This document shows positions 16,813-63,900 of a stretch of 64,000 bases of DNA, piece by piece. The DNA is taken from the NCBI RefSeq assembly GCF_002591895.1, contig NZ_NISX01000012.1, positions 62,001 through 126,000 of the forward strand, read 5' to 3'. The stretch's first letter is position 1. Each line of letters starts with the position of its first letter. Source of the DNA: Lacimicrobium alkaliphilum. Its GTDB lineage: Bacteria; Pseudomonadota; Gammaproteobacteria; Enterobacterales; Alteromonadaceae. The position numbers and the translations under genes are program-made. The notes below the pieces were generated by a model that did no database searches, was not told the origin of the DNA, and saw only the letters and a list, made by a program, of their open reading frames with translations.

Positions 16813-16826
16813 TGTAAGCGCTTACA
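16813..16826. promoter_or_regulatory. LacI-family operator O1 of the TonB receptor gene
   Basis: TGTAAGCGCTTACA is a perfect 14-bp palindrome 41 bp upstream of the receptor start codon. It matches the site at 4472-4485. The regulator is probably the LacI protein at 7345-8346. Confidence 0.8.
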
Positions 16827-48356: not shown

Positions 48357-50569
48357 GGCGTATTACTCATTGTAAAAATCAGTTCACCCCCAGCCATAAT
48401 CTGCTGGTGGGTCAGTTTAAATCCATTCAGTGGCTGGCCGTTCAGGGTCACCTGACTGACATACACGTTATCCGGCCCCTGATCCCTTGCCACTACAGTA
48501 AAAGTCCGGCCATTTTCAAGATTGATTGTCGCCCGTCTAATCGCCGGGCTGCCAAGTACATATTCGCCGGAGACCGGATCCACCGGATAAAAGCCCAATG
48601 CACTGAACAGATACCAGGCTGACATCTGGCCGGCATCTTCATTGCCGGCCAGGCCGTCGGGTTTGGTGGTATAGAGTGTGTCCATGATCCGGCGCACCAG
48701 CTGCTGGGTTTTGCCCGCTTCATCCAGATACTGATACAGGTAGGGTACATGGTGGCTGGGCTCATTCCCATGCACATACTGGCCGATGTAGCCCGAGATC
48801 CACTCCGGAAAATCCTCCACTGCCTGTTCGGTGTTGAACATGGCATCCAGTCGCTTAGTGACCTGTTGTTTACCGCCCATCATCCCGATCATACCCGGTA
48901 CATCATGGGGCACAAAGAAACTGTACTGCCAGGCGTTGGCTTCGCAATAGTCTTCCGGATAATAAGCATTGGGGTCAAATGGCTGGCGGAACGAGCCGGC
49001 TGCGTTTCTGGCGCGCATAAAGCCACTTTTCTGGTCATAGTGATGGCGGTAGTTTTGTGCGCGGAGGGCAAATTCATCGGCAATATCCTTTTTGCCCAGC
49101 GCGTCGGCCAGCCGGGCGATAGCCCAGTCATCAAAGGCATATTCCAGGGTCAGCGACACATTCCATTTGCGCTCATCGAAGGGCACATAACCCAGTTCCT
49201 GATAGCTTTTGATGCCGAATTCGTCCTGAGTGGCACTCTGGATCGCTGCTTTGAGAAGTCGCTCACCATCAATATCTGTCAGGCCTTTGAGGTAGGCATC
49301 TACCAGTACCGGCACAGAATGATAGCCCATCATCATATCGGTTTCGTTGCCCTCGAAGATCCATACCGGCAAACGGCCACTGACCTCATAGTGATCCATC
49401 AGACTACCCATCATCTCACCGGTACGCCGTGTATCGATAAGCGTTTTCCAGGGGTGCAGGGCACGAAAGGTATCCCACAACGAGAAAAACTCATATCTGG
49501 GATGATTTTTACTCTGATGAATTTCACCATCGGGACCTTTGTACTGCCCATCGCTGTCTGAAAACAACCGTGGGGCGAGGGAGGCATGGTACATGGCGGT
49601 ATAAAACTGAGTAAGGGTGTCCTTATCGGCCTGAACCTCGACCTTACTGAGCTCTTCACGCCAGGCGTTTCGCGCGTGTCGGTGCACTGCGCTAAAATCC
49701 AGTTGATTGCCTTCTGCCTGCAGATTGGCCCTGGCGCTGGCTTTGCTTACCGAACTGATGGCCGTATGCACCAGAATCTCACCAGACTGAGGCAGGGTAA
49801 AATCAAATTCTGCCGCCAGTGTTCTGCCTGAGGCTGTTCGGGCGGCAAGCGTCTGACCATCCAGTTCGAGCTGGTGCTGGTTAAAAGGCGTAGAGAAACG
49901 GGTATAAAAATAGACCCGCTGATCCTCTGCCCAGCCGCTGGATTTGCGGTATCCGGCGATAGTCTGATTGTCGATAATTTCAATATGCGTCGCGGTGGTA
50001 CTGTCCCAGTTGCGGCTATAACCCAGATCCAGCCGGACAACGCCATTGCCATTATGTGAATCAAAACGATAGCGTTGCAGTCCGCTGCGCGGGCCAGCCG
50101 TAAGCTCTACATTAACCTTGTAGTCGTCAAGGTACACCTGATAATAGCCGGGTGAGGCGCCCTCTTTGTCGTGGCTGAAAGACGATACAATGGTTCCCTG
50201 TTCAGCCCCTCCTTCGAGTTGCTGGCGCATGAAAGGGCGGGTCAGGGGCATAAAAGAAATATCGTAAAGATCACCGGCGCCTGTGCCGGACAGATGTTTA
50301 TGGCTGAACCCGGCGATAACGTTATCAGGGTAAAAATACCCGGCAATCCAGTCCCAGCCGGTCCGGCCATTATCCGGGCTCAGTTGCACCATGCCATGGG
50401 GCACAGTGGCCCCGGGAAAGGTTTTTCCTTTTCCGTCTGTGCCGATAAAAGGATCCACATAATCCAGCGGATCGGTCTGGACTGAGGTGTCTGCGGTATT
50501 AGCGGGTTGCTGGCTGCAGGCGCCTAACAGCGCCGCCAGTAGTAAAGCTGTCAGAGATTTTTTAAGCAT
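48353..50569 (-). CDS. GH92 alpha-mannosidase (copy 2), lipoprotein
   Basis: The second GH92 enzyme is a 738-residue lipoprotein (lipobox LGAC). The ATG at 50569 is chosen; the frame can be extended three codons to a TTG that overlaps the isomerase stop. The catalytic segments read YCEANAWQYSFFVPHD and GNEDAGQMSAW, slightly different from copy 1 (Glu-Asp instead of Asp-Asp). Both keep the essential acid Glu and the second acidic residue expected of the base. It is sandwiched between the isomerase and GH92 copy 1 with overlapping or abutting junctions, so stoichiometric expression is likely. Confidence 0.93.
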   Translation of the reverse strand: MLKKSLTALLLAALLGACSQQPANTADTSVQTDPLDYVDPFIGTDGKGKTFPGATVPHGMVQLSPDNGRTGWDWIAGYFYPDNVIAGFSHKHLSGTGAGDLYDISFMPLTRPFMRQQLEGGAEQGTIVSSFSHDKEGASPGYYQVYLDDYKVNVELTAGPRSGLQRYRFDSHNGNGVVRLDLGYSRNWDSTTATHIEIIDNQTIAGYRKSSGWAEDQRVYFYTRFSTPFNQHQLELDGQTLAARTASGRTLAAEFDFTLPQSGEILVHTAISSVSKASARANLQAEGNQLDFSAVHRHARNAWREELSKVEVQADKDTLTQFYTAMYHASLAPRLFSDSDGQYKGPDGEIHQSKNHPRYEFFSLWDTFRALHPWKTLIDTRRTGEMMGSLMDHYEVSGRLPVWIFEGNETDMMMGYHSVPVLVDAYLKGLTDIDGERLLKAAIQSATQDEFGIKSYQELGYVPFDERKWNVSLTLEYAFDDWAIARLADALGKKDIADEFALRAQNYRHHYDQKSGFMRARNAAGSFRQPFDPNAYYPEDYCEANAWQYSFFVPHDVPGMIGMMGGKQQVTKRLDAMFNTEQAVEDFPEWISGYIGQYVHGNEPSHHVPYLYQYLDEAGKTQQLVRRIMDTLYTTKPDGLAGNEDAGQMSAWYLFSALGFYPVDPVSGEYVLGSPAIRRATINLENGRTFTVVARDQGPDNVYVSQVTLNGQPLNGFKLTHQQIMAGGELIFTMSNTP

Positions 50570-50574
50570 AATAG

Positions 50575-51771
50575 TCAACTGCTGAACTCAGCATCATATC
50601 CGTTTAGGCTGCGCAGCACTTCGATGCAGGCTCCCAGCGTATGGTAATCACACTTTGCGCCGGCGGCGCTTTTCTGGTCACTGGTTTTGCTGTTATCCCG
50701 ATTGAGCAATCTGAACCAGGCACCATGCTGATGGTCGACCATATGCTCCCAGCTGTACTGCCACAGTGATTCATATCGGTGTAAGTATTTACTCTCTCCT
50801 GTGGCTTTGTATAACATGGCTGCGGCTGCAAAGCTTTCCGCCTGAACCCAGAAGTACTTGTCGTCGTCACACCAATTGCCCTGAGGGTCAAAACCATATA
50901 CCAGCCCCCCATATTCTGTATCCAGTGCCTTTTCCCAGGCACGGTCAAACAGGCTGCTGGCGCGTTCCAGTTGCCAGGGGGCAGGGGCGTGGCGGTGCAG
51001 CGTCAGCAACAATTTACTCCATTCAGTCTGGTGGCCGGGCTGAAAGCCCCAGGGGCGGTACAGGTTCTTCGGATCGGTCTTGTTATACTCCCAGTCTGGC
51101 TTGAATTGTTCAGTGAAATGCTCCCACACCAGGCCATCGGTAAGATCGGCCTGGTGCAGGGCAATATTCTCTGCCAGTTGCTGCGCCCGTTGCAAAAACT
51201 GAGGTTTTTCTGTGGCTTCCCAGGCCGCCAACATGGCTTCACATAAGTGCATGTTGGCGTTCTGACCGCGATACGGGCTGAGTACGCCATCGGCGCTTAT
51301 TTCATCGGCATACAGACCATATTCAGCTTGCCAGAATCTCGATTCGAGCAGGGCATAGGTGTCAAGCAGAGGTTGATCATTGTCGATCAGCCCGGCCTTT
51401 CGCAGTGCGGCATAGGCGAGCAAAACAAAGGCATAGCCATAGGCCTGTTGCGTCATATCCAGAGGTTGATGGTTATTCAGTGTCCAGGCGTAGCGCTGGC
51501 TATCCGCTTGCCAGTGCACGGTTTCCAGATAATTCAGGCCATGCAGGGCAATGTCTTTATACTGGAGTTGTTTGAATAGCGTCCAGGCATTGGCGTAGTT
51601 GACAATAATCCGGGTACTGCTCACCAGTTGTTTGAAGTGGGTATCGAATAAACTGCCGTCATCCAGATAGTTCTGATGATAGCCGCCGCTGGCATCCACT
51701 ACCCTTGGGGTATAAAAATCCACAATGCTCTGGCAATGTTGAATAAGAAAATCCTGATCGTAAAAATTCAT
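50575..51771 (-). CDS. AGE-family isomerase, probable D-mannose isomerase
   Basis: This 398-residue protein is an (alpha/alpha)6-barrel enzyme of the N-acylglucosamine 2-epimerase family. The conserved GFQPGHQTEWSKLLL and the late CDYHTLGACIEVL carry the two catalytic His residues. Context favours mannose-to-fructose isomerisation (YihS-like) over 2-epimerisation of GlcNAc: the adjacent gene is a fructokinase-type PfkB protein, and the flanking enzymes are alpha-mannosidases. It overlaps the kinase stop by ATGA. It is cytoplasmic. Cellobiose 2-epimerase is a less likely alternative. Confidence 0.85.
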   Translation of the reverse strand: MNFYDQDFLIQHCQSIVDFYTPRVVDASGGYHQNYLDDGSLFDTHFKQLVSSTRIIVNYANAWTLFKQLQYKDIALHGLNYLETVHWQADSQRYAWTLNNHQPLDMTQQAYGYAFVLLAYAALRKAGLIDNDQPLLDTYALLESRFWQAEYGLYADEISADGVLSPYRGQNANMHLCEAMLAAWEATEKPQFLQRAQQLAENIALHQADLTDGLVWEHFTEQFKPDWEYNKTDPKNLYRPWGFQPGHQTEWSKLLLTLHRHAPAPWQLERASSLFDRAWEKALDTEYGGLVYGFDPQGNWCDDDKYFWVQAESFAAAAMLYKATGESKYLHRYESLWQYSWEHMVDHQHGAWFRLLNRDNSKTSDQKSAAGAKCDYHTLGACIEVLRSLNGYDAEFSS

Positions 51772-52793
51772 TCCGGGCTCCCGAATATTGTTCTGAATTG
51801 TTCCGGCTGGTAACCTTTTTCAGCCAGTGCCTCAAACACAGTGGTCAGTGTTGGCAGTGCCGGGAAGGCTCCCGGCAGGGTCACCGCGTGGGCGCCACAG
51901 TGGCTGGCAAAGATCAGCAAAGGCTCCAGTGTCTCTGGCCTGGCAATCTGTGCCCCGGGGTTTTCAATGACACTCAGTGCAAACAAAAAACCACCGATAA
52001 AGGCATCGCCCCCTGCGGTGGTGTCTGTGGCTTTAACCTGAGGTGGCTGTACCGCCCCACGATGGTTGGCAGTGTAGTAATGGATCAGGTTGGCGCCGTC
52101 AGTCACCAACAACAAGCGGCAACCCTGTTGAAGGCATTGATGGATATAGGTGTCAGTTTCACCATCGGCCAGATAGTCCAGCTCATCTTTAGAGAATTTC
52201 ACCACATCGGCCTGATATACCAGCTGGTTTACGCGCTCCCGATCCGCCTCGCCTGCCGACCAAAGGTTGTGACGCAGGTTGACATCGAAACTGACCAGCG
52301 CACCTTGCTGTTTTGCCAGGCTGACCAGATGTAACGAGCATCCGGCGATGGCTTCTGTGGTCAGGGTGTTGCTGCAAAGGTGCAAAATACTGTTGCTATC
52401 AAACCAGTCAGGATCACATTGTTGCTGATTAAACAGTACGTCGGCAGTCTGATGGCGGTAGAAGGAGAAACTGCGTTCTCCCTGCTCGTCCAGCATAACA
52501 AACGCCAGTGCGGTCTTGGCTTCGGGATGCTGAAAAACCAGCGAAGTGTCAACACCGTAGGTGGTCATGGCCTGGATCAGAAAATCACCAAATGCATCCT
52601 GGCCCACCTGGCCAACAAAACGGGCATTGCCCCCCAGTTTGGCCACTGCCACTGCGGCATTCGCCGGTGCACCGCCGGGGTACTGGCGGAATTCCGGTAG
52701 CCTAAGTGGTCCTTGTTGTGACTGACTAAAATTCAGAAAATCGATCAGTGCTTCACCAAAGCAGACGATTTGCTTCATAGCGTTAGGGTTCAT
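51768..52793 (-). CDS. PfkB-family sugar kinase, probable fructokinase
   Basis: This 341-residue ribokinase-fold kinase has the N-terminal signature YPGGAPANAAVAVAKLGG and the C-terminal TTAGGDAFIGGFLF holding the catalytic Asp and anion hole. With mannose isomerised to fructose by the neighbouring enzyme, it would make fructose-6-phosphate and feed glycolysis without a mannose-6-phosphate step. It overlaps both neighbours by ATGA (porter stop upstream, isomerase start downstream). A mannokinase role cannot be excluded from sequence alone. Confidence 0.88.
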   Translation of the reverse strand: MNPNAMKQIVCFGEALIDFLNFSQSQQGPLRLPEFRQYPGGAPANAAVAVAKLGGNARFVGQVGQDAFGDFLIQAMTTYGVDTSLVFQHPEAKTALAFVMLDEQGERSFSFYRHQTADVLFNQQQCDPDWFDSNSILHLCSNTLTTEAIAGCSLHLVSLAKQQGALVSFDVNLRHNLWSAGEADRERVNQLVYQADVVKFSKDELDYLADGETDTYIHQCLQQGCRLLLVTDGANLIHYYTANHRGAVQPPQVKATDTTAGGDAFIGGFLFALSVIENPGAQIARPETLEPLLIFASHCGAHAVTLPGAFPALPTLTTVFEALAEKGYQPEQFRTIFGSPE

Positions 52794-54043
52794 AAGCTTA
52801 CCGGGACCTCTTGTTGTGCGGCGGGGCGTTTCGATCCTACCAGTGCATACCAGCCGATATACAGATAGGCAAGCATGGGCACGACAAAGCTGAACTGTAC
52901 CGAGGTGCTATCGGCTACCAGTCCCTGGATCAGCGGCAGAATTGCACCACCGACGATGGCCTGGCACAACAGCCCCGAGCCACGGCTGGTCAGAGGGCCG
53001 AGCCCGCGAATCGCCAGAGTAAAAATAGTCGGAAACATGATGGAGTTAAAAAAGCCGACGGCGATCACCGACCACATGGCCAGTGCGCCGCTGCTGTTGA
53101 TGGATACCAGTAATAACACAATGGCCATAATACTGTTAAACGCCAGTACATAGATGGGTGCGACAAAGCGGGTCAGCGCGGCCCCCACAAAGCGCCCGAT
53201 CATGGCTCCGCCCCAGTAGTAGGACACCATCTGGCTGGCCTGATGTTCACTTAAACCACCGATATGAGGCTGACCAAAATAGTTGACCAGAAAGCTGCCG
53301 ATGGTGACCTCGGCGCCCACATATAAAAAGATTGCCAGCGTACCGAACACCAGCGCCTTTTGCTGCCAGATACTGTCACCAGCCTGAGCGGTATGCTCAT
53401 CAGTTGATTCAATAACAGGCAATTTAAGAAACTTAAAACTCAGTGCTGTGAGTAGCATTACACCGGCCAGCAACAAGTAGGGGAGCTGCACCGATTTAGC
53501 ACTGATTTGCTCTGACTCCACTGCACCAAAAATCAGCGCCGCGCCAAACAGCGGTGCCAGAGTGTGGCCCAGAGAATTAATCGCCTGAGCCAGGTTCAGG
53601 CGGCTGGCGGCAGTGCGCTCAGGGCCCAGAATGGACACATAGGGATTGGCTGAAACCTGCAAAATAGTCACACCGGCAGCCAGCACAAAGAGCCCGAGCA
53701 GAAACAGCGCGTATACGGCCACTTCTGCCGCCGGATAAAATAAACCACAACCCAGGGCAATAGTGCACAGGCCAGTGATAATGCCGCGAATGTAACCAAT
53801 GCGCTCAATCAGCTTTCCGGCCACCGGGGAGACGATAAAATAGGCACCGAAGAAACAGAACTGCACCAGCATGGCCTGGGTATAGCTGAGTGAGAAGGTG
53901 GCTTTTAGGTGTGGTATCAGTATGTCATTGAGGGCGGTAATAAACCCCCAGATAAAAAATAAGGTGGTCATCGCCGCAAACGCGAAATGTGTGTGATTTC
54001 GTGGTCCCTGATTATCAGGAATGTGTGGAGGAATCGTTGCCAT
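52790..54043 (-). CDS. FucP-type MFS transporter, probable mannose porter
   Basis: The 417-residue product is a 12-helix FucP/GluP-group porter with the same [18 protein letters not shown] block as the porter at 3123-4391, to which it is clearly paralogous. It is the first gene after GH92 copy 3, separated by 93 bp, and leads the kinase-isomerase-GH92-GH92 series, overlapping the kinase start by ATGA. It should import mannose released in the periplasm. It probably shares the LacI-regulated promoter upstream of GH92 copy 3, since no operator lies in the 93-bp gap. Confidence 0.88.
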   Translation of the reverse strand: MATIPPHIPDNQGPRNHTHFAFAAMTTLFFIWGFITALNDILIPHLKATFSLSYTQAMLVQFCFFGAYFIVSPVAGKLIERIGYIRGIITGLCTIALGCGLFYPAAEVAVYALFLLGLFVLAAGVTILQVSANPYVSILGPERTAASRLNLAQAINSLGHTLAPLFGAALIFGAVESEQISAKSVQLPYLLLAGVMLLTALSFKFLKLPVIESTDEHTAQAGDSIWQQKALVFGTLAIFLYVGAEVTIGSFLVNYFGQPHIGGLSEHQASQMVSYYWGGAMIGRFVGAALTRFVAPIYVLAFNSIMAIVLLLVSINSSGALAMWSVIAVGFFNSIMFPTIFTLAIRGLGPLTSRGSGLLCQAIVGGAILPLIQGLVADSTSVQFSFVVPMLAYLYIGWYALVGSKRPAAQQEVPVSL

Positions 54044-54136: not shown

Positions 54137-56461
54137 CTACTCTGGTGTCAAAGACAGTGAATAGGGCGCCGCATCAGCTGATGTGCCCCAGTCTTTGTTT
54201 GGTTGCTGCCCCATCTCGAAACGCAGCGTGCCGCCTGCCTGAATGGCATGGTGGTCAAGCCAGGTTTTATGATGCGCCTCACCTTTTAGCCAGGCCTGCT
54301 GAATAAACGGGGCTTGTGGGCCGTTGTTGGCCGCTTCAATCACAAATTCATTGCCGTCTTCCAGAGTCAATGTGACCTTGTCAAACAGAGGGCTGCCAAT
54401 GACATACTCGGTGGTACCGGGGGTGACGGGATAGAAACCCAGAGCACTGAACACATACCAGGCCGAGGTCTGGCCGTTGTCCTCATCTCCTGCATAGCCA
54501 TCCGGTGTTGGGAAGTAGAGTTTGTCCATTACATTGCGGACTTTTTGTTGCGCTTTCCAGGGCTGCCCGGCATGGTTGTAGAGGTAGATCATATGCTGAA
54601 TAGGCTGATTGCCATGGGCATAATTCCCCATATTCACAATCTGCATTTCACGAATCTCATGGATGGTAAAACCGTAATAGGAATCGTCAAACAGCGGTGG
54701 CATCTCAAACACTTCATCAAGCTTGTCGATAAAGGCCTGATTGCCCCCCATAAGCTGTTTAAGCCCTTCAACATCATGAAATACCGACCAGGTATAATGC
54801 AGTGCATTGCCCTCGGTAAAGGCGTCTCCCCATTTCAAAGGGTTAAAGGGTGACTGAAAGCTGCCATCGGCATTTTTACCGCGCATCCAGCCGGTTTGCG
54901 GGTCAAACAGATGGCGATAGTTGAGTGAACGCTGACGGAATTTTTCGGCATCCTGGTCTTTGCCCAGCAAATCAGCCAGCTGATACAGATTAAAATCGGC
55001 AAAAGCATATTCCAGGGTACGGGCCGCGCTTTCATGAATCCCCACGTCATAAGGCACGTAGCCCAGCTTATTGTAATAATCCACGCCCTCACGGCCCACA
55101 GATGTCATCGGGCGGCCTTCATTGACTTCGGCGTTTTTCAATACGGCTTCATACAGGGTGTCGATATCAAAGCCGCGAATGCCCTTGATATAGGCATCGG
55201 CGATGTTAATCGCTGAATTAGAGCCGATCATCACATTGCGATGGCCGGGACTGGCCCATTCCGGCAGCCAGCCTGATTCCTTATAGGTATTGGCCAGACC
55301 CTGCATAAATTTGGCATCCAGCTCCGGATACATCAGGGTAAAGAAAGGAAACACGGCGCGAAAGGTATCCCAGAAGCCGTTATCTGTGAACATGTAGCCG
55401 GGCAGCACTTTGCCGTTGTAGGGGCTGTAATGCACCATCTCATTTTCGGCGTTATATTCGTAGAATTTACGCGGGAAGAGCAGTACCCGATACAGGGTGG
55501 AGTAGAAGGTACGCACTTTTTCCAGATCGCTGCTTTGTACTCTGATGCGTGCCAGTTCCTGCTGCCAGTCCTGACGGGCTTTATTGCGGGTATCTTCGAA
55601 ACTGTCATTACCGACTTCACGTTCGAGATTCAGCTGCGCCTGTTCGGGGCTGATAAAAGACGAGGCTACTTTGACATTAACCTGCTCGCCGCGCTCCGTT
55701 TTAAAGCCGATTATGGCACCCACATGTTCGCCTTTGCTAATAAGACTGTTGGCCTGCAACTGCCAGTCGTCCTGCCAGGTGTGAGTGATTTCAAAATCCT
55801 TGTCGAACTCGGCAACAAAGTAATTATGGAAATTGTCAGGCACGCCGCCATGGTTATTGCGGGCATAGCCGATAATCTTACGTTGTTCGGGAAGGATCTT
55901 AACCATCGAGCCTTTGTCGAACGCATCCAACACGATGTAAGAGGTTTCCCGCTCAGGGAAGGTGAATCTGAATTGTGCTGCTCTTGTGGTAGGCGTGATT
56001 TCGGCCGTCACATCATGATCGGCCAGATACACACTGTAGTAGTCAGGGCTTACCTGTTCTGCCTTGTGGGAAAACCAGGATGCCCGGTTTTCCTGATTAA
56101 ACTTCAATTCTCCGGTGACCGCCATAAAGGAAAAGGCGCCGTAATCGTTCAGCCAGGGGCTGGGCTGATGGGTTTGCTTGATGCCGCGGATTTTGTCGTC
56201 ACGGTATTTGTAGGTCCAGCCATCCCCCATGGGCGCGGTCATCGGAGTCCAGAAATTCATTCCCCAGGGTCTGGCAATGGCGGGGTAGGTATTGCCGTTG
56301 GACAGGCTGAACTTGGAGTCAGTCCCCATTAACGGGTTCACATATTGCACCAGATCCTGCTGTACCAGATTGACCGGTTGTGATGTGCCGCTACGCGGTT
56401 GATTATTCTGACAAGCCATTAATGACAGGCTTAAGAGGGCGGCGATCCACAGTCTGTACAT
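54137..56461 (-). CDS. GH92 alpha-mannosidase (copy 3), lipoprotein, divergent subgroup
   Basis: This third GH92 enzyme, 774 residues, is a lipoprotein (lipobox LMAC) and is the most divergent of the three. Its catalytic segments read FTEGNALHYTWSVFHD and GDEDNGQTSAW. The acid Glu is kept, but Asp replaces the Asn and Thr replaces the Met found in the other copies, so a different linkage or substrate is plausible. AGGGGAATAAT precedes the ATG. It is the promoter-proximal gene of the minus-strand unit and faces the lacI gene. A perfect TGTAATCGATTACA operator lies 97 bp upstream of its start codon. Confidence 0.92.
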   Translation of the reverse strand: MYRLWIAALLSLSLMACQNNQPRSGTSQPVNLVQQDLVQYVNPLMGTDSKFSLSNGNTYPAIARPWGMNFWTPMTAPMGDGWTYKYRDDKIRGIKQTHQPSPWLNDYGAFSFMAVTGELKFNQENRASWFSHKAEQVSPDYYSVYLADHDVTAEITPTTRAAQFRFTFPERETSYIVLDAFDKGSMVKILPEQRKIIGYARNNHGGVPDNFHNYFVAEFDKDFEITHTWQDDWQLQANSLISKGEHVGAIIGFKTERGEQVNVKVASSFISPEQAQLNLEREVGNDSFEDTRNKARQDWQQELARIRVQSSDLEKVRTFYSTLYRVLLFPRKFYEYNAENEMVHYSPYNGKVLPGYMFTDNGFWDTFRAVFPFFTLMYPELDAKFMQGLANTYKESGWLPEWASPGHRNVMIGSNSAINIADAYIKGIRGFDIDTLYEAVLKNAEVNEGRPMTSVGREGVDYYNKLGYVPYDVGIHESAARTLEYAFADFNLYQLADLLGKDQDAEKFRQRSLNYRHLFDPQTGWMRGKNADGSFQSPFNPLKWGDAFTEGNALHYTWSVFHDVEGLKQLMGGNQAFIDKLDEVFEMPPLFDDSYYGFTIHEIREMQIVNMGNYAHGNQPIQHMIYLYNHAGQPWKAQQKVRNVMDKLYFPTPDGYAGDEDNGQTSAWYVFSALGFYPVTPGTTEYVIGSPLFDKVTLTLEDGNEFVIEAANNGPQAPFIQQAWLKGEAHHKTWLDHHAIQAGGTLRFEMGQQPNKDWGTSADAAPYSLSLTPE

Positions 56462-56557
56462 ATTATTCCCCTGAATTAAACGACATCTCTGCCTCGTTAG
56501 CGCCAGATTGTAAAAAGTCTGTAACTCTGGCCGAAGCGCAATTTAACAAAAGTTAAC

Positions 56558-56571
56558 TGTAATCGATTACA
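56558..56571. promoter_or_regulatory. LacI-family operator A (mannan locus)
   Basis: TGTAATCGATTACA is a perfect 14-bp palindrome with central CG, on the GH92 side of the divergent region. It is identical to the site at 57997-58010. The LacI protein at 56800-57810 is the likely ligand. Confidence 0.85.
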
Positions 56572-56662
56572 TTTAACGCGTCCAGCCTTCCGCTACAAGA
56601 ATTTACTGGTCTGCTGTAGGAACTTTTTGTCAAAATGCTGAACTGATAGCTGTAGCTCAGAA

Positions 56663-56799: not shown

Positions 56800-57810
56800 A
56801 TGACCAATATCAAAAAAGTAAGCCAGCTGGCAGGGGTATCAACGGCGACCGTTTCCAGGACGCTGAAGAACCCTGATTTGGTAACGCCTCAGACCCGCGA
56901 GAAAGTAATGAAAGCGGTTAAGCAAGCTGGTTACAGACCAAACTGGCTGGCAACCAGCGTGAAGACGGGGAAATCCAACTCAATTGTGGTGTTGGTTCCC
57001 AATCTGGTTAACCCCTTCTTTATGCGTATTATCGAAGGTATTGAGCAGGCCGCGCAGGAGCAGGGTTTTTCCGTTTTACTCGGTGATACTCAGGGGAAGG
57101 CTGAACGAGAGCACGAGTATGCCAGCATGGTATTAACAAATCGGGCCGATGGCCTGATTCAGCTAGACCACTCTTTTCCTTTTTCAGAAAATGATGCCGA
57201 TCTTGCTTCCTCAATCCCTATGGTAAGTGTGTGTGAGCGCATCAGCGGGCATCCGGACTATCCGTTTATCGAACTGGATAATTACGCTGCCGGGCGGGCC
57301 CTGACACACCACCTCATTGGATATGGACACCAGCGATTCGGGGTGATTGCGGGCCAGCTAACCAGCCAGATACATCATGACAGGCTGGCGGGAATCAAAA
57401 GTGTACTTACCGAAGAGGGGATCAGTTTTGATGAAGATATGTTGGTGGGAGGCAGTTACCGGATAGAGACCGGTATTGAAGGTGTTCAGCAGTTACTGGC
57501 ACAAAAGCAACCGCCAACGGCGGTGTTTTGCTTTAATGATGATATTGCTTTGGGGGCAATACACGAGATAAAGCGCCATGGTCTGCGTGTACCGCAGGAT
57601 ATCTCGGTGACTGGCTTTGATAACGTGCGCACTTCGGCTTATATGGATCCGCCATTAACCACAGTGGATCAGCCTGCTTACGATATGGGACGGCGTGCCG
57701 TTGAGGTGTTGTCGAAAATGATCAGCCGCGAGCCTCTGACCCGAACCCGTGAAATACTTCCGTTCAGCCTGATTGAGCGTCACAGTACTGGTCCGTTGGG
57801 TAAAGACTAG
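56800..57810 (+). CDS. LacI-family regulator of the mannan locus
   Basis: This 336-residue LacI/GalR-type regulator has its helix-turn-helix at residues about 4-25 (VSQLAGVSTATVSRTLKNP), the hinge YRPNWLATSVKTGKSN and a sugar-binding domain ending near FDNVRTSAYMDPPLTTVDQ. It is only distantly related to the regulator at 7345-8346; the recognition helix differs (STATVSR against SLATVSR), consistent with the different operator word TGTAATCGATTACA. It lies between the GH92 and TonB receptor promoters and probably controls both. The inducer is expected to be mannose or a mannobiose-like sugar. Confidence 0.92.
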   Translation: MTNIKKVSQLAGVSTATVSRTLKNPDLVTPQTREKVMKAVKQAGYRPNWLATSVKTGKSNSIVVLVPNLVNPFFMRIIEGIEQAAQEQGFSVLLGDTQGKAEREHEYASMVLTNRADGLIQLDHSFPFSENDADLASSIPMVSVCERISGHPDYPFIELDNYAAGRALTHHLIGYGHQRFGVIAGQLTSQIHHDRLAGIKSVLTEEGISFDEDMLVGGSYRIETGIEGVQQLLAQKQPPTAVFCFNDDIALGAIHEIKRHGLRVPQDISVTGFDNVRTSAYMDPPLTTVDQPAYDMGRRAVEVLSKMISREPLTRTREILPFSLIERHSTGPLGKD

Positions 57811-57985: not shown

Positions 57986-57996
57986 TTTATCTCGAC

Positions 57997-58010
57997 TGTA
58001 ATCGATTACA
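57997..58010. promoter_or_regulatory. LacI-family operator C (mannan TonB receptor)
   Basis: TGTAATCGATTACA is identical to operator A at 56558-56571 and lies immediately downstream of the predicted transcription start. Confidence 0.88.
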
Positions 58011-58058
58011 TTTATAATGTACGGTGATTATCAACGAGAGCTTTAATAAGAATATATA

Positions 58059-58138: not shown

Positions 58139-61042
58139 ATGGCTATCAGGAACATGAACAATCAGACCTCTGCAAAAAGAGGCTTTACCAAAACACTGCT
58201 TTGTCTTTCTATTCTCAGCGCTATGGGTACGGGCGTGGCAGCAGCTCAGGATAACGGGCAGTCTTCTGATGCAGAGGACACCGAAGTGATCGAAGTTAGG
58301 GGTATTCGTGCCTCAGCAGCGGAGAACCTGGCGATTAAGCGTCTGTCCAATGCTGTCGTTGATGCGATTACCGCAGAAGACATAGGCAAGTTTCCGGATA
58401 AGAACGTTGCGGACTCCCTGCAACGTGTTCCCGGTGTGGTGATCCAGCGCAGCGGTGGTGAAGGGGCCACTGTCAGTATCCGTGGCTTATCTTCAGATCT
58501 GACATTCACTCAGCTCAATGGCAATTTTATTGCCTCTTCTCCGGGCGAGCCAAGCCGCTCCTTCTCATACGCGCTGTTGCCTTCGACCATGATTCAGAAA
58601 GTTGAGGTGTTTAAATCTTCTGAAGCTCGCCTGGATGAAGGTGGCATTGGCGGTACCATCTTACTGCACTCCCGCAAGCCGCTGCAGATGGAAAAAAATT
58701 CCGGTATTTTCAACATTGAGGCAACCAACTCGGATATCACCGACAAAAACGAACCTCAGTTCAGCGGCGTGTACTCGTGGAAAAACGATGACGAAGACTT
58801 TGGTATGTTACTGGGCTACACCCGGCAGGATCGTACCAACCGCTCGCAAACCTCGCGTATCAATATAATGAACCAGAACTACCTGTACACCGAGAGGGTT
58901 GATAATCAGGAAGTTGAAGGTGGGGCCACCGGCTATGCTGCCCAGAGCATGGTTCAGGAAGTATTGGAAGAGGAACGGGAGCGTACCGGCACGCAACTGA
59001 CGCTGCAGTGGCGGCCCACTGACAATCTTGAAGTGGGGATGAATTATTTCCGCTTCACCTTGGGTCAGGACTCCATCCTAAATCAACTGGAGTACCCGGA
59101 GTGGAACAATAATGATCGCTTCTGGACTGACGTCAGAGTCAATGAAGCAGCTAATTTTGTTACCGGTATCGATTATCACGTTGGCGTATCCGGTGAGCAG
59201 CAGGTCTCTCCGATTCCCAGGATGAACGGTGAATATAAAATTGAAGAGTCGACGTCCGATACGTTTGATTTCTTTATGGAGTACGAGGGACTTAACTTCA
59301 ATGCACGGGTTGTAGCTGGTCATACTGAAGCTGAAGGTGGTCCTTCTGAGAAGTATCGGGCGGCTTACTATGCCGGGGAGTCATCATTGTTTTACGGGTA
59401 TGATTTTTCTGACCGTAAGATGACTACCTATATGGACCCTGAGATGATTAATAATCTGGCCGCAGGTATAGGTGGTGAGGCAGATGCCGGGGCCACAGAT
59501 TCCAGCTTTGTAACCGGTACTCAGGAAGAGACCTATGCTCAGTTGGATGTGGACTACTTCCTGGATTATGGCATCGTCGACACGCTGCGTTTTGGTGCCA
59601 AGTACCGAAAAGGTGAAATTCATCGGGACACCCGTAACAGTTTCTACCTCGACCCGGCTCTGGATATCGAAGCAGAAGAAGCCAGCGGCGGTATCAACCT
59701 GGATGATGATTACTCTAAAAATGGCGGCATCCCTGAACTGACCGGACTGATTCGCCCTCAATCACTGGACAACCTGTCTGATGTGATCAATACCAACTTG
59801 TTCCCGGCCGTAGACTGGCATAAATATCAGGACTATTTGCTGGACAATTTTGTTCACTACACCCGCATTGAACCTAATTATGTGTACGGGGTAGAGGAAG
59901 AAATAGCCGCGGCTTATCTTCAGGCCGACTATTCCTATGAGAATTTTCGCGGTAACTTTGGTGTGCGGGTGGTAAAAACCACAACCACCAGCGGTTCATC
60001 AGATAAAGTCAGGTACCGGCTTGACTGGAAAGACAGTGAAGGAAACGAGCTGCCTGAAGATGAGCGCCTCTACGAAGACTTTATCTATATTGAAAAGGAA
60101 AACAGCGATACCAAGGTATTGCCCAGCCTGAACCTGGTTTGGGATATCGATAAAAACTGGGTGCTGCGTGCGGCGGCTGCAAAAGTGATGGCCAGACCCG
60201 GATATGATGATCTGGGCCAGTTCCAGACACTGACTTACACCTCCAGTGAATACGCTGCCGATCGCTCCAGCGCAGATAACTTCGATCCTGTTGATGATGT
60301 TGAAGGCTGGACAGGTTCAGGTGGTAACACTGAATTGCTGCCGTTTGAGTCTACCCAGTTTGATCTGTCACTGGAGTACTACTACGGAAATGGTTCAGGT
60401 GCCGGTATTGCATTGTTTAGTAAGGATGTGGACAACTTTGTTGTGCCGCTGATTATTGATGTTACCCGGGATGTACCTGACATGAGTTTCACTCTGCCCA
60501 ATGCCGGCGATGAAACGATAAATGTCAGCGGTGACAATATTCAGGTGAGGGATTTCTACACCACGGCCAACGGTACCAACGCCACTTCTAAAGGTATGGA
60601 AGTTTTTGTTCAGCACTTCTTCGATAATGGTTACGGCATCTACGCCAACTACACCCGCAATAATACCAATCAGGCTGATATTGAACTGAGTGGTGAAAAA
60701 GTCGGTGAATCGCCATTGGCCGGCAGCTCTAAATATCAGATGAACTTTTCCGTTTTTTATGAGGATGAGCTGTTTAGTGTTCGGGCTTCCTATAACAAAC
60801 GGGGTCCTACCGTCGGTGGATATAACGCCTCATGGGAAATGAACTACTACACGGATACCTATGATCAGGTAGATGTGAATGCCAGTTATAACTACAGCGA
60901 AAACCTGGTGTTTAATGCCTCGGTAATCAACCTGACCCAGTCAGATACCTATGTTCACCTCGGTGATGACACTAAGGACCGTTTCATCAGGAATTCCTAT
61001 GGCGGCCGTCGCTTCTATGCAGGCGCAACTTACCGCTTCTAA
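58139..61042 (+). CDS. TonB-dependent outer-membrane receptor of the mannan locus
   Basis: This 967-residue TonB-dependent receptor would import manno-oligosaccharides or N-glycan fragments. GGAG lies 7 bp before the ATG. It has a signal peptide ending near AAAQDN, a TonB box-like EVIEVRG, and a plug with EDIGKFPDKNVADSLQRVPGVVIQR in part and VSIRGLSSDLTFTQLNG. The long barrel ends TYRF. It is of the same subtype as the receptor at 13808-16771. The discoidin-repeat lipoprotein gene follows 50 bp downstream with no terminator between, so the two are probably cotranscribed. Two LacI-type sites and a strong promoter lie upstream. Confidence 0.93.
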   Translation: MAIRNMNNQTSAKRGFTKTLLCLSILSAMGTGVAAAQDNGQSSDAEDTEVIEVRGIRASAAENLAIKRLSNAVVDAITAEDIGKFPDKNVADSLQRVPGVVIQRSGGEGATVSIRGLSSDLTFTQLNGNFIASSPGEPSRSFSYALLPSTMIQKVEVFKSSEARLDEGGIGGTILLHSRKPLQMEKNSGIFNIEATNSDITDKNEPQFSGVYSWKNDDEDFGMLLGYTRQDRTNRSQTSRINIMNQNYLYTERVDNQEVEGGATGYAAQSMVQEVLEEERERTGTQLTLQWRPTDNLEVGMNYFRFTLGQDSILNQLEYPEWNNNDRFWTDVRVNEAANFVTGIDYHVGVSGEQQVSPIPRMNGEYKIEESTSDTFDFFMEYEGLNFNARVVAGHTEAEGGPSEKYRAAYYAGESSLFYGYDFSDRKMTTYMDPEMINNLAAGIGGEADAGATDSSFVTGTQEETYAQLDVDYFLDYGIVDTLRFGAKYRKGEIHRDTRNSFYLDPALDIEAEEASGGINLDDDYSKNGGIPELTGLIRPQSLDNLSDVINTNLFPAVDWHKYQDYLLDNFVHYTRIEPNYVYGVEEEIAAAYLQADYSYENFRGNFGVRVVKTTTTSGSSDKVRYRLDWKDSEGNELPEDERLYEDFIYIEKENSDTKVLPSLNLVWDIDKNWVLRAAAAKVMARPGYDDLGQFQTLTYTSSEYAADRSSADNFDPVDDVEGWTGSGGNTELLPFESTQFDLSLEYYYGNGSGAGIALFSKDVDNFVVPLIIDVTRDVPDMSFTLPNAGDETINVSGDNIQVRDFYTTANGTNATSKGMEVFVQHFFDNGYGIYANYTRNNTNQADIELSGEKVGESPLAGSSKYQMNFSVFYEDELFSVRASYNKRGPTVGGYNASWEMNYYTDTYDQVDVNASYNYSENLVFNASVINLTQSDTYVHLGDDTKDRFIRNSYGGRRFYAGATYRF

Positions 61043-61092: not shown

Positions 61093-63900
61093 ATGAGCAA
61101 GCTCAAACTAACAAAACTCTCGGCCGTTGTTGGACTAGCCCTGACGGGTCTTTATGGATGCGGTGGTGCGGACAGCGCGGATCCGGCAGATATTCCGGTG
61201 ACCCCTAAAACCACTTCTGCGGATCTGGTAGGGCAGGTTACAAAAGGGACCGTCAGTAACGCAGCGGTGAGCGTCACCCAGCTGAATGGTTCAGCCATTT
61301 CAATTACCTCTGGTGATCGCACTGATGCCGAAGGGCAAATCAACATGAGTGTTGAAGGCGCAGATGGCTTTGGTATTAACAGTATGGTTAAGCTAGTGGT
61401 CACTGCTGATGCTGATTCGAGTATGGTATGTGATGCACCAAGCTGTGGTGACATGGCCATGGGCGATATGATCACCGGTGGCTTACTTTCCGGAACTGAA
61501 CTGACCTCAATGACCTATCTGAGTGTGCCTTTTGCGACTTCCGCAGATGGCACCGCAGATGCGACTTTCCAGGCCAATGCGCTGACGACAATCGCCACTG
61601 CATTGGTTGAAAAAGATGTTGCGGGCGGGCGCAATGTGTCTGTTCGCCAGCTTTATGAACTCGCACTCGAGGACAATTCACTGACAACACTCAAAGCTTT
61701 GGGTGTGGATGCGAAACAGAATGTTTTCAGCGGCGATCTGGTCAGCGCGGAAGCCTATGAAAACTTCGTTTCAGGTGAAGACTGTGTGGATCTTGTGGGC
61801 GAAGACGGTGAACCCACAGGAGAACAGGAATGCACTGACACGCTGGTTAGTACCGACATTATCAAGCTGTCTCTTGCCAACGCCGCTTTTGCTGACATTG
61901 GGCCAGACAGTACGATTAACGCGCGTATCAGCAACACCATCGAAACCATTGGCATAGCACAGGACGGAGATATTACCGTACTGAAACCACTACGCGAGCA
62001 AATGCTGGCGACGGTTTCCGCGGTGCCGTTTCTGGATCAGCTTGGAATGGCGGCCGAAGATGTCATTGATCTGGCTTTACCCTTTCTGGAAGAAGAACTG
62101 AACACAGGGCCATTGGTAGCGGTATCAACCGATGATGCCACCATTACTGCCAGAAACCAGATTAGCGAGGCTGAAGCCGGACCGAAGGCGTTTGATGGTG
62201 ATGTAAATACCAAATGGTTAGATCACAATGACTGGAGTGGCGCACCTACCGAGGAAGACCCGTCCTGGGTTCAGGTGGAGTTTGCTGAACCTCAGGCTAT
62301 AAGTAGCCTGGCTTTAACCAGTGCCAATGATGCGCCAAGCCGCGATCCGGAAAATTTTAACCTGCAGGCCTCTGACGACGGTGAAAACTGGGTAACAGTG
62401 GCAGAATTTCTGGGTGAAACCTTTGATGAGCGCTTCGAGCGCAAAGAGTTTAGCTTTGCCAACGGTCTGAAATACAGCCACTACCGTTTAAATATTACCA
62501 AGAACAAAGGTGATGACGGATTGATGCAAGTGGCGGAAATTGAATTTTTCGGACCCGTTTACGCAGATGTGGTTCAGCCCGCATCGGAGGCCAGTATTAC
62601 TGCTCGCGGTGCAATCAGCGATAATGAAGCAGCACCAATGCTGTTCGATGGTGATACACAAACCAAATGGCTGGACAATACTGGCGTGCCTACAGCAGAA
62701 GACCCATCGTGGGTTCAGGTGGATTTTGCGACGCCTGTGGCCGTCGGTACCCTGGCGATTACCAGTGCCAATGACGCACCCAGCCGCGATCCGGAGAACT
62801 TTAATCTGCAAGGCTCCAATGATGGTGGCGTAACCTGGGTAACATTGGCAAGCTGGCTGGCTGAATCCTTTGATGAGCGTTTTGAACGTCAGTTGTTTAA
62901 TCTCGATAATGGCCTGGCGTTCAGTAGCTATCGTTTCAATGTCACCAAAAACAAGGGTGACGACAGCATGATGCAGATAGCCGAGCTTGAACTAATCGGT
63001 CCACAACTGGCCGATCTTAACCATGCGCTCGATTACACAAACGTTGAGGCCCGCGGTGCTATCAGCGACGCTGAGGCCGGGATTATGGCTTTTGATGACG
63101 ACAGCCAAACCAAGTGGTTAGACAATACGGCCGTACCAACCGCCGAAGAGCCAGCCTGGGTTGAGGTGTCATTGCCAGAATCGCAGGCGGTGAATCAGGT
63201 GGTACTGATCAGTGCCAACGATGCGCCGGACCGTGATCCTGAAAACTTTACCCTGCAGGCCACCAGTGACGGTGAGTACTGGGTAACCCTGGGTGAATGG
63301 TTAGGTGTATCCTTCGATGAGCGGTTTGAACGCCAGACCTTCCCGGTCGTCAATTCTCTGGGTTACAGCCAGTATCGGTTCAATATCACTAAAAACAAAG
63401 GTGACAGCAACCTGATGCAGATTGCTGAAATTGGTCTGGTGGGTCCACAGTACCAGTCAGTGGTGCTGACTCAAAGTGGTGCAACCTATGTGGAGCGTGC
63501 AGCCATCAGTGACAATGAAGCCGGTTCGATGGCCTTTGATGGCGACGCCCAGACTAAATGGCTCGACAATGCTGGCGTGCCAACAGCCGAAGAGCCGTCA
63601 TGGATTGATATTTCACTGGCTCAGGCCGGAACCGTTAATCAGCTGGCAATGACCAGTGCTAACGATGCACCGAGCCGGGATCCGGAAAACTTCCGTCTGC
63701 TGGGCTCCAACGATGGTGAAACGTGGTCGTTGGTTGGCGAGTGGATTGGAGAGTCTTTCGATGAGCGCTTTGAACGTAAGGTTTTCCCCACCACCAATGG
63801 TCGTAGCTTTATGTTCTACCGGGTTGAAATCACCAAAAACAAAGGTGACGACAGCCTGATGCAAGTGGCCGAGATCGAGTTAATCGGTCCTCAGCTCTAG
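61093..63900 (+). CDS. Surface lipoprotein with four tandem discoidin (F5/8-type, CBM32-like) repeats
   Basis: The 935-residue product has a lipoprotein signal (lipobox LYGC), an N-terminal region of about 320 residues with a small beta-domain-like start (VGQVTKGTVSNAAVSVTQLNG in part) followed by a helical stretch, and then four homologous units starting near residues 349, 500, 648 and 797. Each unit carries AFDGDxxTKWLDN, SANDAPSRDPENF, ESFDERFER and NKGDDSLMQVAEIELIGPQ-like blocks, the pattern of galactose-binding-fold discoidin domains. No catalytic motif is seen. Cotranscription with the TonB receptor suggests a cell-surface glycan-capture protein. AGAGGAATAATA precedes the ATG. Confidence 0.82.
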   Translation: MSKLKLTKLSAVVGLALTGLYGCGGADSADPADIPVTPKTTSADLVGQVTKGTVSNAAVSVTQLNGSAISITSGDRTDAEGQINMSVEGADGFGINSMVKLVVTADADSSMVCDAPSCGDMAMGDMITGGLLSGTELTSMTYLSVPFATSADGTADATFQANALTTIATALVEKDVAGGRNVSVRQLYELALEDNSLTTLKALGVDAKQNVFSGDLVSAEAYENFVSGEDCVDLVGEDGEPTGEQECTDTLVSTDIIKLSLANAAFADIGPDSTINARISNTIETIGIAQDGDITVLKPLREQMLATVSAVPFLDQLGMAAEDVIDLALPFLEEELNTGPLVAVSTDDATITARNQISEAEAGPKAFDGDVNTKWLDHNDWSGAPTEEDPSWVQVEFAEPQAISSLALTSANDAPSRDPENFNLQASDDGENWVTVAEFLGETFDERFERKEFSFANGLKYSHYRLNITKNKGDDGLMQVAEIEFFGPVYADVVQPASEASITARGAISDNEAAPMLFDGDTQTKWLDNTGVPTAEDPSWVQVDFATPVAVGTLAITSANDAPSRDPENFNLQGSNDGGVTWVTLASWLAESFDERFERQLFNLDNGLAFSSYRFNVTKNKGDDSMMQIAELELIGPQLADLNHALDYTNVEARGAISDAEAGIMAFDDDSQTKWLDNTAVPTAEEPAWVEVSLPESQAVNQVVLISANDAPDRDPENFTLQATSDGEYWVTLGEWLGVSFDERFERQTFPVVNSLGYSQYRFNITKNKGDSNLMQIAEIGLVGPQYQSVVLTQSGATYVERAAISDNEAGSMAFDGDAQTKWLDNAGVPTAEEPSWIDISLAQAGTVNQLAMTSANDAPSRDPENFRLLGSNDGETWSLVGEWIGESFDERFERKVFPTTNGRSFMFYRVEITKNKGDDSLMQVAEIELIGPQL
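62137..63897 (+). repeat. Four tandem discoidin-domain coding repeats
   Basis: The units begin at about 62137, 62590, 63034 and 63481, with a period of roughly 148-151 codons. The protein-level blocks KWLDN, DAPSRDPENF and FDERFER recur in all or nearly all units, while synonymous positions have diverged, so the duplications are not recent. Confidence 0.88.

Follow-up and report, generated by a model that had tools for sequence, protein, structure and literature searches.

A lipoprotein with four CBM32-type repeats as a candidate glycan-binding partner of a TonB-dependent receptor in Lacimicrobium alkaliphilum

Does the lipoprotein encoded directly behind a TonB-dependent receptor in Lacimicrobium alkaliphilum capture a glycan for that receptor, and if so, which one? 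The gene lies near the end of a 64,000-nucleotide stretch of contig NZ_NISX01000012.1 (assembly GCF_002591895.1, positions 62,001 to 126,000; hereafter the window), and an original prediction made from the letters of this DNA had suggested that its product is a multivalent surface glycan-capture protein and perhaps a functional analogue of SusD, with yeast mannan and high-mannose N-glycans as ligands to try. Our analysis supports, with a rough probability of 0.6, a dedicated glycan-binding partner of one TonB receptor, whose cargo in this locus would most likely be a high-mannose N-glycan or N-glycopeptide held at the outer face and fed to the receptor. Algal and animal glycans are contested between marine Gammaproteobacteria and Bacteroidota. 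With a conserved pair that has candidate binding sites, one can test whether the former evolved an unrelated device for capture.

The four galactose-binding-fold units of about 149 residues and the absence of a catalytic motif were borne out: PF00754 (F5/8 type C) matched four stretches of the lipoprotein (155.2 bits against a cut-off of 28.2, E 1.2e-45), no catalytic domain in it passed the Pfam cut-off, and the repeat anchors Glu361, 512, 661 and 809 lie 148-151 residues apart, with 59-66% pairwise identity among the repeats. The N-terminus, ALTGLYG followed by Cys23, is lipobox-like, and Cys23 is invariant in 32 of 32 aligned sequences (the window protein plus homologues from 31 of the 38 loci introduced below). 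Predicted lipoprotein, N-terminal spacer, C-terminal binding modules and no catalytic domain together make this a candidate protein of the surface glycan-binding type, its lipidation being read from the signal. Residues 24-35 (61162-61197), after the conserved Cys, form a short Gly/Ser-rich, acidic stretch seen throughout the 32 sequences, which might have a role in sorting or surface export. The source genome holds a single copy of the lipoprotein, and F5/8C gives one further, weak match in it (E 2.8e-5, 30% identity); two of the three genomes of the genus carry the lipoprotein, the source genome included.

Plug and barrel domains and a TIGR01782 match identify the upstream partner as the TonB receptor that had been predicted. 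Its stop ends at 61042 and the lipoprotein ATG stands at 61093; a scan of the 50 nucleotides between found neither a terminator-like site nor a plus-strand promoter-like site, and a plausible ribosome-binding site, read by eye, precedes the ATG, so that the two genes are probably co-transcribed. Receptor/discoidin-lipoprotein pairs, which the original prediction had proposed to look for across Alteromonadales, were found in other genomes. One scan of the GTDB contig collection for lipoprotein homologues gave 38 loci, spanning Bowmanella, Rheinheimera, Alteromonas, Paraglaciecola, Colwellia, Thalassotalea, Agaribacter, Aliiglaciecola, Aestuariibacter, Pseudoalteromonas and other Gammaproteobacteria, in which the homologues align over nearly their whole length with a best-segment identity of 46-61%, far above chance. 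All 38 have a receptor homologue as the immediately preceding gene on that strand; in the 31 loci measured, 23-144 nucleotides separate it from the aligned lipoprotein start. Of 295 family genomes searched in reverse with the receptor, 42 had matches at E 1e-150 or below, 45 places in total; at most two candidates were scored per genome, so these counts are lower limits, and two of the places are halves of one split gene, leaving 44 genes. The lipoprotein directly follows 39 of these (genome G341 among them).

The two genes also appear to share a history. Receptor and lipoprotein tree distances correlate with r = 0.82 over 39 taxa, shared ancestry uncorrected, and the two gene trees, which leave out L005 and L030 (split receptor ORF, open reading frame), broadly agree. 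The pair of loci L022, L040 and L042 nests beside that of L017 in both trees, yet sits in a Pseudoalteromonas-type locus, and this clade therefore appears to have moved as a receptor-lipoprotein unit. In the sister species G001 the receptor occupies two overlapping frames (L134:8223-11137), next to an intact lipoprotein, possibly through a frameshift or a sequencing error; the L030 receptor is likewise in two pieces.

We then asked what the repeats resemble. By sequence and predicted fold they are CBM32 modules: the best solved match of the repeat profile is a GH92 enzyme (7nsn, E 3e-43), which is also the top structural match of the repeat model (Z 22.0; the 280 aligned residues span two domains, so the root-mean-square deviation, rmsd, of 32 is not meaningful), followed by a galactose-binding sialidase CBM32 (2bzd; Z 20.2, rmsd 1.8 Å over 140 residues). 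In 7nsn, from Neobacillus novalis, the N-terminal CBM32 binds mannoimidazole via Glu105, Asp148, Arg152 and Phe122, according to the portions available of PMC10167667. Our alignment, with residues counted by hand, equates Glu105 with the Glu of ISxxE, Asp148 with the Asp of SANDA and Arg152 with the Arg of RDPEN, and places Phe122 at the residue following KWLD. All four window repeats have the polar triad, which is complete in 32, 31, 32 and 30 of the 32 aligned sequences for repeats 1 to 4, respectively. The second CBM32 of 7nsn lacks all three polar residues in the same alignment, and no ligand is reported bound there in those portions (PMC10167667). The loop after KWLD takes the form HNDW in repeat 1 only, repeats 2-4 reading KWLDN with three residues missing. 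Of the motifs TKWLDN, DAPSRDPENF and FDERFER, once put forward as possible ligand or calcium sites, all exist, and the second holds the Asp of SANDA and the Arg of RDPEN; by this alignment KWLDN and FDERFER hold no polar contact, and the third contact is instead the Glu of ISxxE. Compared with 7nsn, the best match in both sequence and structure and alike in its three polar contacts by alignment, the aromatic contact differs, and where the mannosidase has one such module inserted, the window protein has four in tandem on a non-catalytic lipoprotein.

The repeats do not seem to be recent copies of one another. Of 128 repeats, 119 had their nearest neighbour at the equivalent position of another species, 7 within the same protein and 2 elsewhere, and lineage-specific copying was rejected for this reason; the four-repeat layout thus seems to predate these species. 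At E 1e-15 the repeat profile matched 4 of 197 order genomes, always in this lipoprotein, counts that are lower limits because such wide searches score only some of the first-look candidates per genome. Degenerate repeats do occur: repeat 2 of L022 and repeat 4 of L017 have lost all three contacts, and repeat 4 of L022 has lost two (Asp kept), making these proteins natural two- and three-site variants.

The cargo was approached through the gene neighbourhood. Beyond the window (contig 4 of the source genome, G000; L003) follow, in order, genes for a NagK-like kinase (scoring below the NCBI cut-off for that name), a glycosylasparaginase, GH85, a CutC-family protein, a mannosidase-type GH2, an SSF symporter and a further GH92, and then one ORF without family assignment and a transketolase. 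The glycosylasparaginase carries a twin-arginine translocation (TAT) signal, and among solved structures its bacterial namesakes match it best (E 2.8e-123, against 5.7e-38 at best for isoaspartyl peptidases); its N-terminus and that of GH85 are of the export type. Judged from sequence, the enzyme families of a high-mannose N-glycan set stand together here: GH85, four GH92, the mannosidase-type GH2 and glycosylasparaginase. Because these enzymes adjoin the pair, we moved the likely cargo from mannan to an N-glycan or N-glycopeptide, and the locus is best read as one for high-mannose N-glycan utilisation; yeast alpha-mannan as the main cargo is not favoured. In the set of window and downstream ORFs submitted to Pfam, neither GH76 nor GH99 passed the cut-off, no genome-wide search having been made, and the AGE-family epimerase has a GH76 match below the cut-off. 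The pair thereby points to N-glycoproteins as a nutrient of marine Gammaproteobacteria.

Expression of the locus may be under common control. The core palindrome TGTAATCGATTACA occurs at 56558-56571, before GH92 and lacI, and at 57997-58010, before the receptor, and at one mismatch or fewer these are exactly its two places in the 4.3-Mb genome (reversed control pattern, 0). The window and 16 loci (L037 excluded, and any locus in which no lacI/GH92/receptor trio was called) supplied 34 homologous intergenic stretches, 32 of which contain the half-site CGATTACA, and TGYAATCGATTRCA was found in 18 of the 19 GH85-bearing loci and in none of the other 19. These palindromes are candidate operators through which LacI would control GH92 and the receptor-lipoprotein pair together (Table 1). 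A related palindrome, TGTAAGCGCTTACA, stands at 16813-16826 of the window, about 40 nucleotides ahead of a further TonB receptor gene (13808-16771, minus), behind which comes a tryptophan-halogenase-family gene, and is possibly the site of a second LacI-type regulon.

Table 1 Features of the receptor-lipoprotein locus and of related loci. Positions are those of the window unless a locus is named; aa, amino acids; nt, nucleotides.
Feature	Position	Strand	Basis or remark
Lipoprotein, 935 aa, N-terminal domain + four F5/8C (CBM32-type) repeats	61093..63900	+	ORF ATG to stop uninterrupted; Pfam PF00754 x4; 38 homologous loci
Signal peptide, lipobox-like end, probable lipidation of Cys23	61093..61161	+	Sequence; Cys23 invariance
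N-terminal domain, residues about 36-335	61198..62097	+	Structure model; invariant Cys 113, 118, 231, 247
F5/8C repeat 1, residues 345-489	62125..62559	+	Profile match; candidate contacts Glu361, Asp413, Arg417
F5/8C repeat 2, residues 496-638	62578..63006	+	Profile match; candidate contacts Glu512, Asp561, Arg565
F5/8C repeat 3, residues 645-786	63025..63450	+	Profile match; candidate contacts Glu661, Asp710, Arg714
F5/8C repeat 4, residues 793-935	63469..63897	+	Profile match; candidate contacts Glu809, Asp858, Arg862
TonB-dependent receptor, 967 aa, partner gene	58139..61042	+	Pfam Plug + barrel; TIGR01782
Palindromic LacI-type operator-like site ACTGTAATCGATTACATTTA	57995..58014		Direct repeat + palindrome; 124 nt before receptor start
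LacI-family regulator	56800..57810	+	Pfam LacI and Peripla_BP_3
Second identical operator-like site ACTGTAATCGATTACATTTA	56556..56575		Between GH92 (54137-56461) and lacI
GH92 alpha-mannosidase, lipobox-like N-terminus	54137..56461	-	Pfam PF07971, E 3e-175
MFS transporter	52790..54043	-	Pfam
PfkB-family carbohydrate kinase	51768..52793	-	Pfam
AGE-family epimerase/isomerase	50575..51771	-	Pfam PF07221
GH92 alpha-mannosidase, lipobox-like N-terminus	48353..50578	-	Pfam
GH92 alpha-mannosidase	46128..48356	-	Pfam
Stand-alone lipoprotein directly before YjbH (PF06082), same strand	L084:1992-5419, L085:516-3726, L086:5792-9143		3 of 4 stand-alone relatives seen

In the mechanism that we propose, lipidated Cys23 would anchor the lipoprotein to the outer membrane, and the N-terminal domain would be a spacer that holds the modules off the membrane and perhaps contacts the receptor. 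The four CBM32-type modules would offer four like Glu/Asp/Arg sites for terminal pyranoses, weak sites that together may give avidity for branched mannose-terminated N-glycans, and would keep the glycan beside the receptor for import by TonB energy. GH92 enzymes, GH85 and the TAT-exported glycosylasparaginase would then trim the cargo in the periplasm, SSF and MFS transporters, the GH2 mannosidase, kinases and epimerase would complete its breakdown, and LacI would govern GH92 and the receptor-lipoprotein pair jointly via the two identical putative operators.

Several observations weigh against this proposal. In the repeats, the stacking Phe122 of 7nsn is replaced by Asn or His, window repeats 2-4 lack the Trp/Tyr that homologues commonly have in the loop, and the polar triad is kept equally in homologues from loci without mannosidases; since it persists in loci that have no GH92 or GH85, the triad alone cannot prove mannose binding. 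For the CBM32s of 7nsn themselves, the authors could not demonstrate alpha-mannooligosaccharide binding in their binding studies, as the available portions state (PMC10167667). The full-length model of the lipoprotein reaches a predicted template-modelling score (pTM) of 0.60. As to the pairing, 5 of the 44 receptor genes have no adjoining lipoprotein (L121, L122, L124, L126 and L133; 42-56% identity, all of genus g12), more distant receptors (38%) in L022, L024, L040 and L042 are followed by no lipoprotein of their own, the position of L088 differs between the two gene trees, and relatives of the N-terminal domain exist without a receptor. About half of the 38 loci lack GH92 and GH85 and carry other sugar genes, which counts against a strict mannose reading, as do 8 of 17 pair-bearing genomes (G149, G341, G924, G853, G909, G787, G1000 and G941) that lack both families. 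The five g12 receptors would make useful controls for a receptor working alone.

The composition of the loci bears directly on these points. Non-overlapping ORFs of 100 aa or more were counted in the fetched flanks, so that the number of absences is a maximum (at the NagK position of L008 an antisense ORF was taken; the L013 sequence stops behind GH85), and across the 38 loci this gave NagK in 33, CutC in 34, glycosylasparaginase in 22, GH85 in 19, LacI in 18, and the GH92 types of 54137 and of the downstream gene in 16 each. The 19 GH85-free loci (Pseudoalteromonas, L020 and L028) carry instead a Gfo/Idh dehydrogenase (18), an IolE-like isomerase (17) and an MFS transporter (17). The regulator of L022 is of the AraC/PAS kind, and a GH99-family gene follows its pair (Pfam), with 97% identical ORFs at that place in L040 and L042; G1000 and G941 are of this GH99 locus type (L040 and L022). 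In a third layout, L088, the pair is immediately followed by NagK, CutC and glycosylasparaginase, in a genome (G341) without GH92 or GH85. Among 21 hand-chosen genomes (17 with the pair, 4 without) tested for these enzymes, 12 lack GH92 and 16 lack GH85, and a glycosylasparaginase orthologue (61% identity or more) is present in 13 of the 17 pair-bearing genomes against 0 of the 4 others, three of which were judged for it only beside their receptor. As the pair also occurs in loci and genomes without GH92 or GH85, the family as a whole is unlikely to be specific for mannose. The claim of a multivalent glycan-capture partner keeps its dedicated pairing and its CBM32 modules with conserved polar contacts, though probably without a mannose specificity common to the family. 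A pair apart from glycan genes, named at the outset as a sign against glycan capture, was not seen, since each of the 38 loci holds sugar-metabolism genes.

These counts could also mean that the true ligand is a glycoside that both locus types have in common, whether containing N-acetylglucosamine (GlcNAc) or not, for instance GlcNAc-Asn or glycopeptides, with the mannosidases accessory. The prevalence of NagK-type kinase and CutC over GH85 and GH92, the distribution of glycosylasparaginase orthologues and the L088 layout all fit such a ligand. Glycosylasparaginase was, however, not found in the fetched flanks of 16 of the 38 loci, the pair-bearing genomes G149, G990, G909 and G787 have no close orthologue of it, and both the mannose analogue bound by the nearest solved CBM relative and the GH99-family gene of L022, L040 and L042 count against such a ligand; we consider a GlcNAc-type ligand possible, if on the unlikely side. 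The CutC-family gene (L003:9635-10357), named for copper homeostasis, is present in 34 of the 38 loci and accompanies the NagK-like kinase in both locus types; its function may therefore lie in the metabolism of amino sugars or glycosides and not in that of copper. Members of the second locus type also have a 3-keto-disaccharide hydrolase (L088:1472-5761, L027:2-1752) and a GMC oxidoreductase (L088, L027, L028:3-1409), hinting at a 3-keto-glycoside route.

A further question is on which side of the outer membrane the lipoprotein stands. Gammaproteobacterial lipoproteins usually face inward, and this one has a lipobox-like signal without a recognised surface-export signal; were it on the inner leaflet, facing the periplasm, it would take glycan from the receptor and pass it to GH92 and GH85, an arrangement with which the export-type N-termini of GH85 and glycosylasparaginase agree. 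Four like sites, however, would be of more use for capture from dilute surroundings outside the cell than in a narrow compartment, and the N-terminal domain best matches the non-heme domain of PgcA, a predicted cell-surface lipoprotein according to the part available of PMC5732950, though as evidence of location this is weak. On balance we hold a periplasmic location to be unlikely and prefer capture at the outer face. That the protein is an adhesin or stability module attaching cells to glycosylated surfaces, co-regulated with uptake and outside it, is very improbable: F5/8C domains also serve in adhesion and relatives of the N-terminal domain sit near polysaccharide-synthesis genes, but this gene adjoins, and is inherited with, one receptor and lies inside an N-glycan gene set under the same operator-like palindrome.

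How does the pair compare with known capture systems? The SusD fold is helical, whereas the lipoprotein is predicted to consist of CBM beta-sandwiches and a mixed N-terminal domain, and no SusD model is among its Pfam matches up to E 0.1. As in SusD, the gene directly follows, and is inherited with, an outer-membrane receptor; by the profile matches the protein is not a SusD homologue, and of the proposed SusD-like analogy this adjacency is what stands. Architecturally, surface glycan-binding proteins of the SusE/F or DUF1735 type are closer to it than SusD is. Bacteroidota DUF1735-type proteins are lipoproteins with an Ig-like N-terminal spacer and a C-terminal F5/8C or LamG module, encoded soon after the receptor, and BT3986 is the one of a high-mannose N-glycan locus, according to the portions available of PMC11216935. 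Lipidation (predicted here), spacer, C-terminal binding modules and position after the receptor are common to both, whereas the lipoprotein here belongs to another phylum, has four F5/8C modules and an N-terminal domain that is not DUF1735 by Pfam, and no SusD lies between it and the receptor. Gammaproteobacterial loci have TonB receptors and no SusC/SusD homologues according to a Paraglaciecola paper, whose available portions name no binding lipoprotein (PMC5943477).

TonB-dependent carbohydrate utilisation loci of Gammaproteobacteria, called CUT loci, likewise bring together a receptor, LacI, glycosidases and inner-membrane transporters; here GH92/lacI and the receptor have one palindrome in common as operator candidate. 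No title on this receptor-lipoprotein pair was among the matches listed for the open-licence PMC literature.

The N-terminal domain was examined last. Its model (predicted local distance difference test, pLDDT, 87.7) shows a beta sandwich followed by helices, and the closest solved structure is the non-heme domain of PgcA, itself a cytochrome (9i0d; Z 10.7, rmsd 4.0, 165 aligned, 13% identity; next row Z 4.4; VIA-align). Foldseek returned nothing for it at E 0.001 or below, no solved relative was found by sequence, and in the window protein and among 23 N-terminal domains no Pfam family passed the cut-off for this region, with no DUF1735, BACON or SusE match. A profile of the domain matched 15 of 394 order genomes, with up to five candidates scored per genome, as in 369 class genomes, where beyond the source genome it gave four weak matches (E 2.9e-10 to 1.9e-7). 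Six of the 15 carry the full receptor-lipoprotein pair, and three encode stand-alone lipoproteins (L051, L052 and L053) followed on the same strand, 103-314 nucleotides on, by a YjbH gene; a fourth, weaker stand-alone relative (L058, E 3.6e-7) precedes a redoxin gene, and the other matches are weak and lie inside longer proteins. One could imagine that Gammaproteobacteria evolved a SusCD-like machine of their own, in which a PgcA-like N-terminal domain docks outer-membrane beta-barrels and carries exchangeable payloads, the four CBM32 modules forming a multivalent lid on TonB receptors and CBM-free relatives standing before YjbH, and the domain serving as a general partner of barrels in both the import and the export of glycans. 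We find this idea distinctly doubtful, and raise it because stand-alone relatives, few as the cases are, precede YjbH beside polysaccharide-synthesis genes: UDP-sugar dehydrogenase and tyrosine phosphatase genes in the neighbourhood of L084, and mannose-1-phosphate guanylyltransferase-type and phosphomannomutase-type genes in that of L085.

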